Below, one piece after another: positions 1 to 5,255 of a stretch of 64,000 nt of DNA. Both the position numbers and the translations under genes were made by a program. Each line of letters opens with the position of its first letter. Within the stretch, counting starts at the first letter, position 1. The stretch comes from a virus. The stretch covers positions 1 to 64,000 of IMG/VR virus record IMGVR_UViG_3300030109_006363. One strand, 5' to 3'. The notes below the pieces were generated by a model that saw only the letters and a list, made by a program, of their open reading frames with translations, was not told where the DNA came from and ran no database searches.

Positions 1-911
1 AAAAGATTTTAGCTAAAGCACAAGAAGAAGGTCTTATTCCTGTTATCTTTGATACTGAAAATGCTATTGATCCAGAAGGTGCTGAAAGACTTGGTCTTGA
101 TATTAGTAAGGTAAAATACGTCCCATGTACTAGCATTGAGCAAGCTAGAAACTCGTTGTATAAGTTCCTTACTTCAGTTAAAGAGAAAGGTCTAGAAGGT
201 AAATTTATTGTAGCTATTGACTCTCTTGCTAACCTTCAATCTGAATTGGAACTAACTCGTATGAGTAAAGATAGTACTTCATCAGATATGGGTACTAAAG
301 CCCGGGCTATGAAGACGTTAATGCAGACTTGTACTAATTTAGGCTCAGTAACTCAAACTACTATACTTTGTACTAATCATGTTTATGATGATCCTACTGC
401 TTTGTTTCCTTCTATTGAAAAGAACATGCCTGGTGGTAAGTCTTGCATCTATTTACCCTCCGTAACGGTGCAGTTAGCTCGTAAACCTATGAAAGATGAT
501 GGTGGTAAGACTGTAGATGGTGAATTAGCTGTAGGTCAAAAGAAATACTCTGGTATTATTATTAGAGCTCTTACTCGTAAAAATAGATTTATTAAGCAAT
601 ACTTAGAAGGTGAAATGTATCTTTCCTTTTCTTCTGGTCTTGATAGATACTACGGCTTAGTAGACTTAGCTGTAGGCGTAGGTGCCGTAGTTCAAACTGG
701 AGCTACTTATCAGCTTGAAGATGGTACTAAGTTAGGTTATTATAAAAATTGGAGAAAAGATACTAAGCTTTGGGAAGAGACTATTTTACCTAAAGTTGAA
801 GATCGAATAAGTCAAGAATGGTCTTATAGTAATAAAGAAGAAGAAATACCTGATGAATTAGGTGAATTAGATAATTTAATTAATGAAAAAGAAACTAGTA
901 CTAACTCTTAG
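1..911 (+). CDS. uvsX: UvsX/RecA-like recombinase, 5' end outside window
   Basis: Strand-exchange recombinase of the RecA/Rad51 family, which coats single-stranded DNA and drives recombination-dependent replication and repair. The frame is open from base 3, so the gene starts upstream of the window and the Walker A loop is not visible. Visible RecA-like pieces are VIFDTENAIDPEGAERLG near the window start (T4 UvsX and RecA have a matching aspartate/glutamate segment), FIVAIDSLANL as a Walker B-like strand, and TTILCTNHVYDD followed by MPGGK, the usual L2-region layout. The C-terminus is acidic, as in UvsX. A TTG at 156 is in frame but cannot be the start because homology continues upstream. 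The last 29 bases overlap queC. Confidence 0.85.
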   Translation, partial: KILAKAQEEGLIPVIFDTENAIDPEGAERLGLDISKVKYVPCTSIEQARNSLYKFLTSVKEKGLEGKFIVAIDSLANLQSELELTRMSKDSTSSDMGTKARAMKTLMQTCTNLGSVTQTTILCTNHVYDDPTALFPSIEKNMPGGKSCIYLPSVTVQLARKPMKDDGGKTVDGELAVGQKKYSGIIIRALTRKNRFIKQYLEGEMYLSFSSGLDRYYGLVDLAVGVGAVVQTGATYQLEDGTKLGYYKNWRKDTKLWEETILPKVEDRISQEWSYSNKEEEIPDELGELDNLINEKETSTNS

Positions 912-1641
912 TGGTGGAATGGACTCGTCTGTGCTGTTATATATGGCACAAGATAGAGGCTTTGAAGAAATACACACTGTAACCTTTGATTACGGTCAAA
1001 GACATAAACGAGAGCTTGATTGTGTTAAGAAACAGATAAGAAACTTCAATGCTCAGTTTAGTGGTTGGTTTAATTTAAAGGTAACTAATAAAGTTCTTGA
1101 TGTCAACTATATTAGAGATATAGCTCCTACATCTTCTTTAACTAATACTGATATAGATAACCCTGATATTAGTAAAATAGCTGGGGATGCTCAACCTGTA
1201 TCTTACGTACCGTTTAGAAACTTAATGTTTTTATCTATTTGTTCTGCTTATGCTGAAAGTGTAGGTGCAGATACTGTATGGTATGGAGCAGCTCAAGTCG
1301 ACTCGCTAGCTGGTTACTGGGATGGTAGTGAAGAATTTGTAGATACAGTAAATGAGGTAACTAAACTCAATAGAGAAAACAGAGTTGAGATTGAAGCTCC
1401 TCTTCTTGATATGTCTAAAGAAGATATTATTAAAGAAGGAATAAGATTAGGAGTAAAGTTTGGTGATACTTGGACTTGCTATTCAGATAGAGAAGATGGC
1501 TTAGCTGATGCTACTACTCCTTCGAGTAGCATGAGAGTAAAAGGATTTATCTCTGCAGGTTATCAAGATCCTATAGTTTATTTGCAGCAAGAAAAGATTG
1601 ATAAACTATATCATGAGAATGAATGTAAGCGATGCGCTTAA
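883..1641 (+). CDS. queC: QueC-like 7-cyano-7-deazaguanine (preQ0) synthase
   Basis: QueC uses ATP and ammonia to turn 7-carboxy-7-deazaguanine into preQ0, a precursor of queuosine and of phage 7-deazaguanine DNA modifications. The PP-loop SGGMDSS lies at residues 10-16, and the family segments FDYGQRH, VPFRN and GDTWTCY follow. The length of 252 residues is normal for QueC. One oddity: canonical QueC continues after the TWxCY cysteine with a CxxCxxC zinc cluster, but here that stretch reads DATTPSSSMRVKGF with no cysteine, and a CKRC pair appears at the extreme C-terminus (C248, C251) instead. The ATG overlaps uvsX by 29 bases, so it is probably co-transcribed. A class-II amidotransferase gene lies 2.3 kb downstream. 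Family assignment is firm; substrate is inferred. Confidence 0.82.
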   Translation: MKKKLVLTLSGGMDSSVLLYMAQDRGFEEIHTVTFDYGQRHKRELDCVKKQIRNFNAQFSGWFNLKVTNKVLDVNYIRDIAPTSSLTNTDIDNPDISKIAGDAQPVSYVPFRNLMFLSICSAYAESVGADTVWYGAAQVDSLAGYWDGSEEFVDTVNEVTKLNRENRVEIEAPLLDMSKEDIIKEGIRLGVKFGDTWTCYSDREDGLADATTPSSSMRVKGFISAGYQDPIVYLQQEKIDKLYHENECKRCA

Positions 1642-3431
1642 AGACCGTAACGTCTAAGTTCTTCTAACTGCCAGTGGGTTTTTGGCTTATATTTTTCCTT
1701 AAATGACTGATTTTTAACTTCTGCTTTTTTATTACGCTTGTCACTTTGCTTTTGCTCAGTTAAGTAAGCTGCAGTTGAGGTTTCAGAGACTTCTAAATGA
1801 GGTTGCATTTTTATTGCCTCATTAATACGTCCTACACCTCCAGGAGCACCAATATATTTACCATCTTGGTCAATAGCATACCTGTAACCTTCTTTCATAT
1901 CATTCGGATCCTCATAATAATCCATAGGGTCACTATAAACTGCCCCAGTAATGGTGTAGCCGTTTTTATTCTTTTCAATGTCAATAACAATACCATCATC
2001 ATGCGGATCGTCCACACCTACTTCATACCTATGACCGCCAATCTCAAGCTCTTTAAGCCTCATTCCTCCTTCTTCGTCGCCCGCAGCTATCCGTTCACCC
2101 TCTTTTCTTAACTCTGCTTTTTTATTAGCTATTTTTAAAGCTACAATCTCCTCTCGGTCGCCTGATGGCAAAAAGTCATCATCACCAAGGAAGTCATAAG
2201 AATCTTCACCATCTTCCCTATTAAGTTGCTTGATTGCATGCTTCTTCTTATCATCATCAACAAGAGCTGCTAGTACATCCTCGTAATCGTCAGGTACATT
2301 TTCATCTGACTGAGGTCCAATATCAAAGTCATCAAACTCATTATCTTCTACATACCCTCTTTTCTTATAATCCTCAATTTCATCTTTATTACCAGGAGGT
2401 AACTTTACCCCAAGTTTTCCATCTGGACTTCTTAACCTTACATGGTTTTCAAACTCTTTTTCAACTTTCTTAGCGTATTTTGGTGAAAACTTTCCTTTAT
2501 ATTCAGCATCTTCTTCTGCATCATTAATATCTTCTTCATACTCATTAGCAGGGCCTTCAGGTTCTAAAGGTTCAGGACCCTCTTCATAATCTTCTTCTTG
2601 ATCAGTATTAAGAGTTACTTTAATTTCCGCTTCTCTAACAGCCGGAAAATATTTAGTAATTAATCTAGTCATTTGATCTGATACTTTTTCCTCAGAACCA
2701 AATACTCCAACAGGGCCTTCAATATTTAAACCAACTCCTGTAGGTTCAGCTTTAAGGTTATTTGTAGTATTAATTAATTGAGCAATTTTAGCAGCAACTT
2801 CATCTTTATTATCTAGAGCTTCAATATTAACGTCAACATCATCAAAGTCTAACTCTACTTGATCAGCACCACTACTCATTAAGCCTTGAGCTATCTTAAC
2901 TTCATCAGATATATCATCAACTGCATCCTCAACTGCGTCAGCTATATCCTCAGTATCTATATCCTTTATGTATTCTCTATCTCTTCTTGTATAATTTATT
3001 ACCGTATCTTTTATTAATTCTTCTAACTTCTCTGGGTCATTAACATACTCTGATACCTCTACACTCCTAGGATTTTTTTCTCTAAAAAGCTCTTCAAATG
3101 CCTTAGGAGCTAACTCTTGCAAACCTTGCCCTATCCTAGTAGAAGATGTAGAATATTTCGCTCCTTTAAGAGTATTAGTAGTTTCCTGATCTAGTATATC
3201 TAAATGCGCTTCTCCTAATGCTGTTACAAATAATATATTTGCTAACCTAGACAGCCCACCTGGTGACGCCTTCTCTCCTGTCTTTGGATCTTTAGCTTTA
3301 TATTTCGCAAACTCAGGTCGAAGCTTAGCAGACCCTACCATTGATTTAAAGTCTTTTTCTTCCAAAAACTCTGCTCTGTTGATTAAATCATTAAAGGAGC
3401 TATAATTATCGTATACATTAAAGGAACTCAT
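1638..3431 (-). CDS. Hypothetical acidic protein, probable late virion protein
   Basis: A 597-residue, very acidic protein that I do not recognise. The N-terminus (FNDLINRAEFLEEKDF) resembles the short amphipathic leaders of other late + strand proteins in this window. The middle is rich in Asp and Glu (residues about 150-420), and the C-terminus is basic and ends in LEELRRYGL. No catalytic motif, signal peptide or membrane segment is visible. It starts 6 bases after a perfect TATAAATA late promoter on its strand, so late expression is likely. Its TAA stop shares a TTAA palindrome with the queC stop. An internal head or head-tail joining role is only a guess. Confidence 0.6.
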   Translation of the reverse strand: MSSFNVYDNYSSFNDLINRAEFLEEKDFKSMVGSAKLRPEFAKYKAKDPKTGEKASPGGLSRLANILFVTALGEAHLDILDQETTNTLKGAKYSTSSTRIGQGLQELAPKAFEELFREKNPRSVEVSEYVNDPEKLEELIKDTVINYTRRDREYIKDIDTEDIADAVEDAVDDISDEVKIAQGLMSSGADQVELDFDDVDVNIEALDNKDEVAAKIAQLINTTNNLKAEPTGVGLNIEGPVGVFGSEEKVSDQMTRLITKYFPAVREAEIKVTLNTDQEEDYEEGPEPLEPEGPANEYEEDINDAEEDAEYKGKFSPKYAKKVEKEFENHVRLRSPDGKLGVKLPPGNKDEIEDYKKRGYVEDNEFDDFDIGPQSDENVPDDYEDVLAALVDDDKKKHAIKQLNREDGEDSYDFLGDDDFLPSGDREEIVALKIANKKAELRKEGERIAAGDEEGGMRLKELEIGGHRYEVGVDDPHDDGIVIDIEKNKNGYTITGAVYSDPMDYYEDPNDMKEGYRYAIDQDGKYIGAPGGVGRINEAIKMQPHLEVSETSTAAYLTEQKQSDKRNKKAEVKNQSFKEKYKPKTHWQLEELRRYGL

Positions 3432-3437
3432 ATAATA

Positions 3438-3445
3438 TATTTATA
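3438..3445 (-). promoter_or_regulatory. Late promoter TATAAATA for the gene at 1638-3431
   Basis: A perfect T4 late octamer on the - strand, 6 bases before the ATG at 3431. The 17-bp gap (3432-3448) also serves the divergent + strand gene at 3449. Confidence 0.75.
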
Positions 3446-3448
3446 CCT

Positions 3449-3901
3449 ATGAAGCTGAATTATAAAGATTTTAACGAAATGTCTGATAAAGAATTACGTA
3501 AATTACCAGGAGTTGGTAGAACTACTGTAGCGCGTATTGTGGGGTTCAGACCTTTTAGAAATAATAACGACTTGTTTAAAGTAAAAGGCTTAGGAGCTAA
3601 GACTCTTAAAAAACTAGGTATCGTTAAATCAAAAAAGAAAAAGAAAAAATGGTATACTATTGATGGTATTGATTATCCAGATACTTGTTTAGCAAGAGAT
3701 AAAAAATATGGAACTATTGACTTGTTTTGGAGAATACCTAATGAAAATAGAGAAAGTGTAGGTGAACCATCACCGTGGGTTTTACGTGTGCGTCGTATAC
3801 TTGAACGTACAAGAGCTGAAGGCCCAGATGGTATTATGAGTCGATATGTAGACAACTCTTATATGTGGGAACCTGGTTTTAAGTTTGATTGGGAAGATTG
3901 A
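3449..3901 (+). CDS. Small helix-hairpin-helix protein
   Basis: A 150-residue protein of two parts. Residues about 12-52 hold two helix-hairpin-helix motifs of the ComEA type (LRKLPGVGRTTVARIVGF and FKVKGLGAKTLKKLGI), which bind DNA backbone non-specifically. A lysine-rich linker follows, then a C-terminal region (from about residue 67) with many aromatic and charged residues and an acidic end (KFDWED) that I cannot assign. It is divergent from the gene at 1638-3431. A role in replication, repair or DNA handling is plausible from the motif and from the neighbouring replication genes; no nuclease motif is evident. Confidence 0.6.
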   Translation: MKLNYKDFNEMSDKELRKLPGVGRTTVARIVGFRPFRNNNDLFKVKGLGAKTLKKLGIVKSKKKKKKWYTIDGIDYPDTCLARDKKYGTIDLFWRIPNENRESVGEPSPWVLRVRRILERTRAEGPDGIMSRYVDNSYMWEPGFKFDWED

Positions 3902-3930
3902 AAAACAAATAAATTATACTAAAATAGTAT

Positions 3931-4602
3931 ATGTGTGCTATCTTTGGTTCTTTTAATACTTCTATGTTTGAAGTTTTGTATGAAGCTAATAAACAAAGAG
4001 GTAATTTCGCAAGTAGTATAGTAAGTCTTTCTGAAGATGATCAATATATTAAAAAGAAGAAAGGTGATATAGACTTTGATAAGTATACTCATCAACCTGA
4101 TACTAGCTACTACTTAGGTCACGTTCAAGCTCCAACATCGTCCGTAAGAGCATGGAATTATGATACATCCCATCCGTTTGAAACTATGTCTTGGTTAGTA
4201 AGTCATAACGGTGTTCTTACTAATCATAAAAAGCTTAATAAAATTTATAACTTTTATACAAGTGTAGATACTGATACTATAGTAAACCTTTTGGAGCACT
4301 TTACAGCTGCTCAACATAAAAAGGGTAAAACGTTTATTAATACTAAAAAAATAGTAAAGGATACTTTAGAGTGTTTATCTGGTACTTTTGCTCTTAGTAT
4401 AGTTAGTTGTGATACTAACGAAGTGTTTATAGCGAGATCGGGCTCAATACTCCATTATAATAATAGTGGTGACTACTCTACTCTTAATGGTGAAGGTTTA
4501 AAGGAACTTCCGGAAGGGGTAGTTATGAAGCTTAATATGAAAACACATAGATGGAATAAGCTTTGTAGCTTTAAACATGATTCACCTTTTTCTTTTATAT
4601 GA
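3931..4602 (+). CDS. Stand-alone class-II (Ntn) glutamine amidotransferase
   Basis: A 223-residue protein with the N-terminal nucleophile glutaminase fold of GlmS, PurF and AsnB. After removal of Met1 the catalytic Cys2 is exposed (MCAIFGSF). GHVQAPTSS and SHNGVLTNH match the glutamine-binding and oxyanion segments, including the Asn-Gly pair. No synthetase, isomerase or phosphoribosyltransferase domain follows, so any released ammonia must be used by another protein. QueC uses ammonia, and Gat-QueC fusions are known, so the queC product at 883-1641 is an attractive partner. It overlaps the following glycosyltransferase gene by 4 bases (ATGA). The fold is clear; partner and product are inference. 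Confidence 0.75.
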   Translation: MCAIFGSFNTSMFEVLYEANKQRGNFASSIVSLSEDDQYIKKKKGDIDFDKYTHQPDTSYYLGHVQAPTSSVRAWNYDTSHPFETMSWLVSHNGVLTNHKKLNKIYNFYTSVDTDTIVNLLEHFTAAQHKKGKTFINTKKIVKDTLECLSGTFALSIVSCDTNEVFIARSGSILHYNNSGDYSTLNGEGLKELPEGVVMKLNMKTHRWNKLCSFKHDSPFSFI

Positions 4603-5255
4603 TTAATACAATGATATTTTCTGCTACTGCGGGTAGCGACATAGATACCTTACTATGGAAAACTAGTGAAAACTCTTCTGTTATTTTTAAACAAAATAAT
4701 AAAGATCCTCTTCATAAAGTTTATAATAAAGCAATAAAGTTTGCTATTCAAGAAAATGTACAAAATTTAGTACTAGTTCATGATGATGTAATTTTAGAAA
4801 ACTTTTCAGAAGACAAATTAAACAACCTATTCAAAAAATATGATGTTGTAGGTTGTGCCGGTGCTAAAGAAGTTAATTTAGCTCCCCCTGCATTATGGCA
4901 TTTAATGGGCGGAGGGTTTGGCTCGCCTAATCTACATGGCGCTGTAGCTCATTTAGATAGTAAAGGTAAAAAACGCATGACACCTTTTGGAAGTTATCCT
5001 AATAGAGCGATTATTATTGATGGTGTCTTTATGGCTATAAAAAGAAAGGTATTTCAAAAAATTAAATTTGATGAATCTTGCCCTTCAAAATGGCATTTTT
5101 ATGATTTAGATTATTCCATGCAATGTCATAAAGCTGGATTCAAAGTAGGAGTCGGTGATATTTTAGTTACTCACGACTCACCAGGGTTAGAGTCGTTTAA
5201 TGAAGAATTTAACAAAGGTCAAGAGTGGTTTTTGAATAAGTGGAAAACTAAATGA
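4599..5255 (+). CDS. GT-A glycosyltransferase, StrF/GT2-like
   Basis: A 218-residue protein resembling StrF-type family-2 glycosyltransferases. LVLVHDDVIL (about residues 66-75) supplies a DxD-like nucleotide-sugar/metal site. IIIDGVFMAIKRKVF and FYDLDYSMQCHKAGFKVGVG match the acceptor-side segments, and VTHDSPG holds a late His-Asp pair. No membrane segment is visible, so it is probably cytosolic. It overlaps the amidotransferase stop by 4 bases and precedes gene 41. Possible acceptors are modified DNA bases or virion proteins; nothing in the sequence decides between them. Confidence 0.65.
   Translation: MINTMIFSATAGSDIDTLLWKTSENSSVIFKQNNKDPLHKVYNKAIKFAIQENVQNLVLVHDDVILENFSEDKLNNLFKKYDVVGCAGAKEVNLAPPALWHLMGGGFGSPNLHGAVAHLDSKGKKRMTPFGSYPNRAIIIDGVFMAIKRKVFQKIKFDESCPSKWHFYDLDYSMQCHKAGFKVGVGDILVTHDSPGLESFNEEFNKGQEWFLNKWKTK

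Follow-up and report, generated by a model that had tools for sequence, protein, structure and literature searches.

QueC converts 7-carboxy-7-deazaguanine to the amide and then to preQ0 in two ATP-dependent steps with ammonia as the nitrogen donor, and residues Y35, R99, Y131 and Y189 of the E. coli enzyme are essential (PMC13329287). The canonical enzymes of E. coli and B. subtilis (cluster 1 of PMC13329287) share the fold and the motifs SGGxDS, YxQxHxxE and VPxRN with the QueC described below. The latter differs in having YWD instead of YPDC and a dedicated class-II glutamine amidotransferase (GAT), and in its clade cysteines 2-4 of the zinc motif are gone. The Gat-QueC fusions of archaea and of phages 9g, Vid5 and Quinobequin likewise combine class-II GAT and QueC domains, and those of phages lie in 7-deazaguanine clusters. 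However, they are single polypeptides with the canonical zinc motif and YPDN or GD, whereas the locus considered here has two ORFs and YWD. Vibrio phages KVP40 and nt-1 have the same two families, QueC and a downstream phrog_12378 gene, overlapping each other within a 7-deazaguanine cluster, but there QueC keeps the zinc motif and the pair is accompanied by DpdA2 rather than by a DpdA3-type protein. Flavobacterium phage immuto and Campylobacter phage CP220 encode a DpdA3-type transglycosylase, as do the marine relatives of our locus, and immuto also has the formyltransferase-kinase-QueF set of these relatives; no GAT of the family analysed here was found in immuto or CP220. An incomplete literature search retrieved no published account of a stand-alone GAT partner of QueC, and prior notice is possible.

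The queC and gat genes of the window

The window is a stretch of 64,000 nucleotides from the virus record IMGVR_UViG_3300030109_006363, itself a 68.7-kb fragment (G000) whose start falls inside uvsX. Between uvsX and a gp41-like helicase gene it contains queC and gat genes, both on the plus strand. Their spacing of 2.29 kb is due to two intervening genes, one of them on the opposite strand:

883..1641, plus strand: QueC-family protein of the YWD type without the CxxCxxC zinc motif, 252 aa (PF06508, E=1.4e-53)
1477..1536, plus strand: former zinc loop of QueC, residues 199-218 (CYSDREDGLADATTPSSSMR), first cysteine kept, the other three replaced
1638..3431, minus strand: acidic protein between QueC and GAT, 597 aa, no Pfam or PHROG match
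3449..3901, plus strand: helix-hairpin-helix protein just 5' of GAT, 150 aa (PF12836, E=1.8e-10)
3931..4602, plus strand: stand-alone class-II (Ntn) GAT with nucleophile Cys2, 223 aa (PF13522/PF13537)
4120..4137, plus strand: GAT signature HVQAPT, residues 64-69, with Gln66 in place of GlmS Arg73
4599..5255, plus strand: glycosyltransferase-like protein (PF13712, E=3.6e-13), its start overlapping the stop of GAT (ATGA)

The initial annotation had recognised here a QueC and a stand-alone Ntn amidotransferase lacking a synthetase domain, 2.3 kb apart on the same strand. The two plus-strand ORFs, 883-1641 and 3931-4602, the matches to PF06508 and PF13522/PF13537, and the folds of the AlphaFold models all agree with this description.

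The QueC-family protein scores 156.3 bits with TIGR00364, above the cut-off of 150.3, and its AlphaFold model resembles B. subtilis QueC (3bl5) with a TM score of 0.82 by target length. In the alignment it keeps SGGMDS, YGQRHKRE and VPFRN; the corresponding canonical motifs (PF06508 cluster 1) are near-invariant in 78 relatives of the window QueC. The essential residues Y35/R99/Y131/Y189 of the E. coli enzyme are conserved as Y37/R112/Y145/Y200. In the position of YPDC there is YWDG, and the canonical zinc motif C(x)8CxxCxxC is absent from the window clade, where cysteines 2-4 have been lost; in the 78 relatives C199 and a new cysteine, C248, are near-invariant and CxxCxxC does not occur. Since both YPDC and the zinc motif fail, we classed the protein as a variant of PF06508. 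Reconstruction of the zinc site from the C-terminal C248/C251 was rejected, as C251 is not conserved. The zinc motif is intact in the QueCs of KVP40, nt-1 and Pseudomonas phage pf16, whose pairs thus suggest that zinc was probably lost after QueC had been paired with GAT. Given the loss of three of the four zinc cysteines, full synthesis of preQ0 by the window-clade enzymes is not assured, and to judge from these replacements the reaction could stop at the amide.

YWD occurs in 75 of the 76 GAT-linked QueCs, compared with YPDC in the canonical enzyme, and in the alignment these proteins also have in common a GD/GE..P..VPxRN stretch and an NR motif. Among the QueC-like protein ligases (Cap9, QatC), Cap9 is matched more weakly by the window QueC. 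No CD-NTase or QatA/B/D genes were found linked to the QueC-GAT loci, where the neighbours are replication and 7-deazaguanine genes.

The stand-alone GAT matches PF13522 (E=3e-9), PF13537 (E=4e-6) and phrog_12378 and has no synthetase domain. Its AlphaFold model (pLDDT 91.4) has a fold resembling the glutaminase domains of GlmS and PurF, and the alignment shows that the nucleophile C2, the oxyanion residues N93-G94 and D113 (Asp123 of GlmS) are invariant. Arg73 of GlmS is the residue that binds the carboxylate of glutamine. Arginine is kept at this position by GlmS, PurF, AsnB and the fused Gat, whereas glutamine is found in all 17 aligned and all 81 surveyed stand-alone GATs. The survey comprised diverse loci obtained by a search with a mixed GAT alignment, plus one further locus, L375, and the motif HxQAPT is present in 81 of 81. 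Since the arginine is replaced in every member of the family, it is uncertain whether the nitrogen donor is free glutamine. The difference from the fusions extends to Thr76 and His86, which are kept in the paired GATs and lost in the fused ones. In cultivated phages members of the family are annotated as hypothetical or as 'nucleophile aminohydrolase'; KVP40.0125, nt-1 VPFG_00173 and pf16 gp77 are still hypothetical.

Linkage and neighbours of the pair

GAT is present in 55 of the 56 IMG/VR QueC loci that have at least 4.5 kb downstream. The sole exception, contig IMGVR_UViG_3300030107_007843 (L042, L055), contains two uvsX-QueC junctions and is probably a misassembled chimera. In the reciprocal survey, QueC of this type was found at 76 of the 81 diverse GAT loci, always on the same strand, or at 76 of the 77 loci with room for it. 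Four of the remaining five start too close to a contig edge, and the fifth, from a 306-kb virus (L379), has GAT, DpdA2 and QueE with no QueC within 5 kb. Loci of one clade are not independent, and the argument rests on the spread over lineages rather than on these counts; the link between QueC and GAT is far beyond chance. The genes are directly adjacent at many of the 81 loci, and none of these loci encodes a fused GAT-QueC protein. The sequences show the gene identities, the clade signatures, linkage in several lineages and placement in 7-deazaguanine clusters. At 31 of the 81 loci a further 7-deazaguanine gene lies within about 5 kb of GAT (DpdA2 at 18, DpdA3-type at 10), and nine have both a DpdA3-type gene and a formyltransferase within this distance.

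In a further large set of viral loci (L418-L455), many have a zinc-less QueC with YWDAS directly adjacent to GAT; other known 7-deazaguanine genes are absent within about 5 kb throughout the set, except in L420. As for cellular homologues, L375, a 6.5-kb scaffold of a Mariprofundus MAG, is the one MAG scaffold encountered. It has adjacent queC and gat genes and was binned as bacterial, but it may be a phage contig.

The only cultivated phage matched directly by the window GAT is pf16. Its own GAT, used as the query, retrieves 49 Vibrio phages, including KVP40 and nt-1. The queC and gat genes share a single base in KVP40, nt-1 and 1.081.O and are separated by 11 bp in pf16 and by 32 bp in 2.275.O; in all these phages the pair adjoins folE, queD, queE, queF or dpdA genes. 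The gene order in pf16 is folE, dpdA2, queF, queC, gat, with queE and queD slightly upstream. DpdA2 was detected in pf16, nt-1 and 1.081.O. The 'hypothetical' gp80 of pf16 (L116:8948-10270) falls into phrog_10773, which also contains DpdA2 of nt-1, and therefore pf16 probably carries a DNA transglycosylase. In Vibrio phage 2.275.O, which has queC, gat, queF and folE, no DpdA was found by the models used; a gene near its queF (L187:2355-3467) has a weak match to amidoligases. The 'glutamine amidotransferases' of 50-kb Vibrio and Pseudomonas phages were rejected as members of the same family, being long proteins from another clade.

The acidic protein varies in length among relatives, its position being more conserved than its sequence. 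In KVP40, nt-1 and pf16 its gene does not separate queC from gat, and the protein probably has no part in the 7-deazaguanine pathway. The helix-hairpin-helix gene is restricted by synteny to the nearer marine relatives.

Remaining pathway genes in relatives

No FolE, QueD, QueE or DpdA was found in the 68.7-kb fragment. The initial annotation had correctly stated that these genes are not in the window and had suggested a 7-deazaguanine for phage DNA, with the other genes elsewhere or in the host. Such genes were found in collinear relatives, which supports a DNA-modification pathway encoded in part elsewhere in the genome. The window is collinear in nearly all its genes with the stretch running from 73.8 to 9.8 kb in a 171-kb relative (G001). 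Beyond the uvsX edge this genome has FolE2 at 92.7 kb, QueD at 94.3 kb and QueE at 95.7 kb, and further on QueF at 137 kb, a P-loop kinase, a formyltransferase at 138.8 kb and a DpdA-type protein at 145.7 kb. By this collinearity, the missing pathway genes of the window phage would be found past the uvsX end of the contig. QueD and QueE co-occur in nine long relatives, each time with FolE or FolE2. FolE, QueD, QueE, QueC and a DpdA assigned to the DpdA3 type by homology are present together in single genomes G001, G002, G015 and G025. The last of these (197 kb) is probably chimeric, and it was rejected as a complete genome because its two ends share 84% identity over 3.9 kb; it also contains a second, partial DpdA.

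We take the DpdA-type proteins of these relatives to be the subfamily called DpdA3, and the formyltransferase to be the one called DpdN. The former are 46-47% identical to the immuto protein annotated as 'DNA guanine transglycosylase, DpdA' and 45% identical to a protein of CP220. QueF lies within 3 kb of the DpdA3-type protein at 69 of 80 viral loci, and in wider samples the gene is found beside QueF and a kinase. In profile-profile comparison with TGT/DpdA1 the motifs VVQG and PHHLLG align, with a score that beats the negative controls and is not significant alone. On the basis of identity to an annotated DpdA and of gene context, the DpdA3-type protein is a probable DNA transglycosylase. 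A search with PF01702 detected no DpdA in 25 records; this negative was discarded because the model also misses the known DpdAs of 9g, nt-1 and KVP40. The PHROGs of DpdA1 and DpdA2, whose controls worked, gave no match in the marine group. Modification without DpdA, by dADG or at the dNTP level, had been considered and was dropped once the DpdA3-type gene near QueF was found.

P-loop kinases (AAA_28, thymidylate-kinase-like; L218:9402-10148, L258:18192-18785, L289:6472-6996) adjoin QueE and QueF in the marine phages and QueF in immuto.

Proposed function and alternatives

Given the linkage and the matching signatures, GAT is best read as the ammonia supply of QueC. We consider it likely that the QueC synthetase and a dedicated GAT feeding it ammonia are two parts of one function, and the earlier suggestion that the two proteins act together is supported to this extent. 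Points against it are the replaced arginine of GAT, the lost zinc cysteines, the two genes lying between queC and gat in the window, and L379 with its GAT but no nearby QueC. The scheme would involve a physical complex, transfer of ammonia, a complete pathway in the window phage and a modified base as its end product. Firstly, GTP would be converted to CDG by FolE or FolE2, QueD and QueE. Secondly, GAT would hydrolyse glutamine, or another amide, and deliver ammonia to QueC, perhaps by channelling, and QueC and GAT would thus convert CDG to preQ0. QueF would then make preQ1 and, where present, the formyltransferase would make formyl-preQ1. Finally, the DpdA3-type transglycosylase would insert the base into phage DNA, where it may act as a shield against restriction enzymes.

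A variant of this scheme, in which the pair is a two-subunit enzyme whose zinc-free QueC depends on a GAT with a donor other than free glutamine and whose product may be the amide or a different 7-deazaguanine rather than preQ0, seems to us rather unlikely. For the DNA of the window phage the likely product is preQ1 or formyl-preQ1 and not an amidine, since relatives carry QueF, the formyltransferase and the probable DpdA3-type transglycosylase. The amidated or formamidino-type base proposed initially is not favoured by QueF and the formyltransferase of the relatives, nor by data on Vibrio phage 6E351A (listed as 6E35.1a). The latter carries the QueC-GAT pair, and dPreQ1 accounts for 15% of dG in its DNA; the amidotransferase is not mentioned in that paper (PMC12028318).

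If GAT supplies ammonia to QueC, a nitrogen-supply subunit would be added to phage 7-deazaguanine synthesis, and this would be a second form of coupling between QueC and an amidotransferase besides the Gat-QueC fusion. A function is thereby proposed for a gene still hypothetical in KVP40, nt-1 and pf16; as KVP40 and nt-1 are in culture, the pairing can be tested at once. Among marine T4-like phages, a large group known only from uncultivated members is predicted to have DNA modified with preQ1 or formyl-preQ1.

An alternative function is a split archaeosine synthase, with QueC and GAT making the amidine (G+) from preQ0 as does Gat-QueC of phage 9g. Gat-QueC together with DpdA leads to dG+ in DNA, and the DNA of nt-1, which carries the pair, contains dPreQ0, dADG and traces of dG+, about 0.02% of G (PMC6884629). 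However, the dG+ of nt-1 was attributed to an ArcS (PMC6884629), and a DUF5591 protein is encoded in the nt-1 cluster, while 6E351A with the same pair has dPreQ1. The active sites of the paired and fused GATs also differ at Arg73, Thr76 and His86. The trees point in the same direction. The paired QueCs form one clade (UFBoot 94), as do the stand-alone GATs (UFBoot 99), each with marine and Vibrio/pf16 subgroups, and in both trees the fusions of 9g, Vid5, Quinobequin and PhiXhv-15 group apart in a clade of their own. In AU tests with 5000 resamplings, few according to the program, nesting of the fusions within either the marine or the Vibrio branch was rejected for GAT (0.04) and borderline for QueC (0.05), and their placement as a sister to all pairs was not rejected (0.30 for GAT, 0.34 for QueC). 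The initial label of a possible 'split Gat-QueC' is thus not upheld: both genes have clades of their own, and a recent split of a known fusion is rejected by the GAT tree. From the separate clades and the failure of nesting for GAT, the association of QueC and GAT looks like an independent pairing, although an older origin in common with the fusions would also fit the trees. On balance, a split archaeosine synthase appears improbable.

We regard as quite improbable the explanation that GAT serves another enzyme, such as the adjacent glycosyltransferase-like protein or one acting in sugar amination, and that its proximity to QueC merely reflects old synteny of the replication block. The ATGA overlap between gat and the glycosyltransferase-like gene, which adjoins GAT in near marine relatives, would fit this explanation, as would sugar-type genes in the slot between GAT and gp41 in distant relatives. 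On the other hand, the QueC-GAT pair is kept across many different neighbourhoods, and KVP40, nt-1, pf16 and L110/L112 have QueC and no glycosyltransferase-like gene next to GAT. The content of this slot varies among relatives (L092-L112): glycosyltransferase-like, GNAT-like, formyltransferase, dATP/dGTP diphosphohydrolase, cytidylyltransferase and NDP-sugar epimerase genes were observed. The formyltransferase adjoins GAT in four distant relatives of the window (L103, L105, L107, L108).

The supply of ammonia to QueC for DNA modification remains the preferred reading also with respect to host tRNA: that the phage genes boost preQ0/preQ1 for tRNA queuosine, a role suggested for 48 phages with preQ0/G+ genes and no recognised DpdA (PMC6884629), is hardly credible here, as the long relatives carry the DpdA3-type gene, elsewhere found beside QueF and a kinase, pf16, nt-1 and 1.081.O carry DpdA2, and dPreQ1 in 6E351A resides in the phage DNA itself (PMC12028318).
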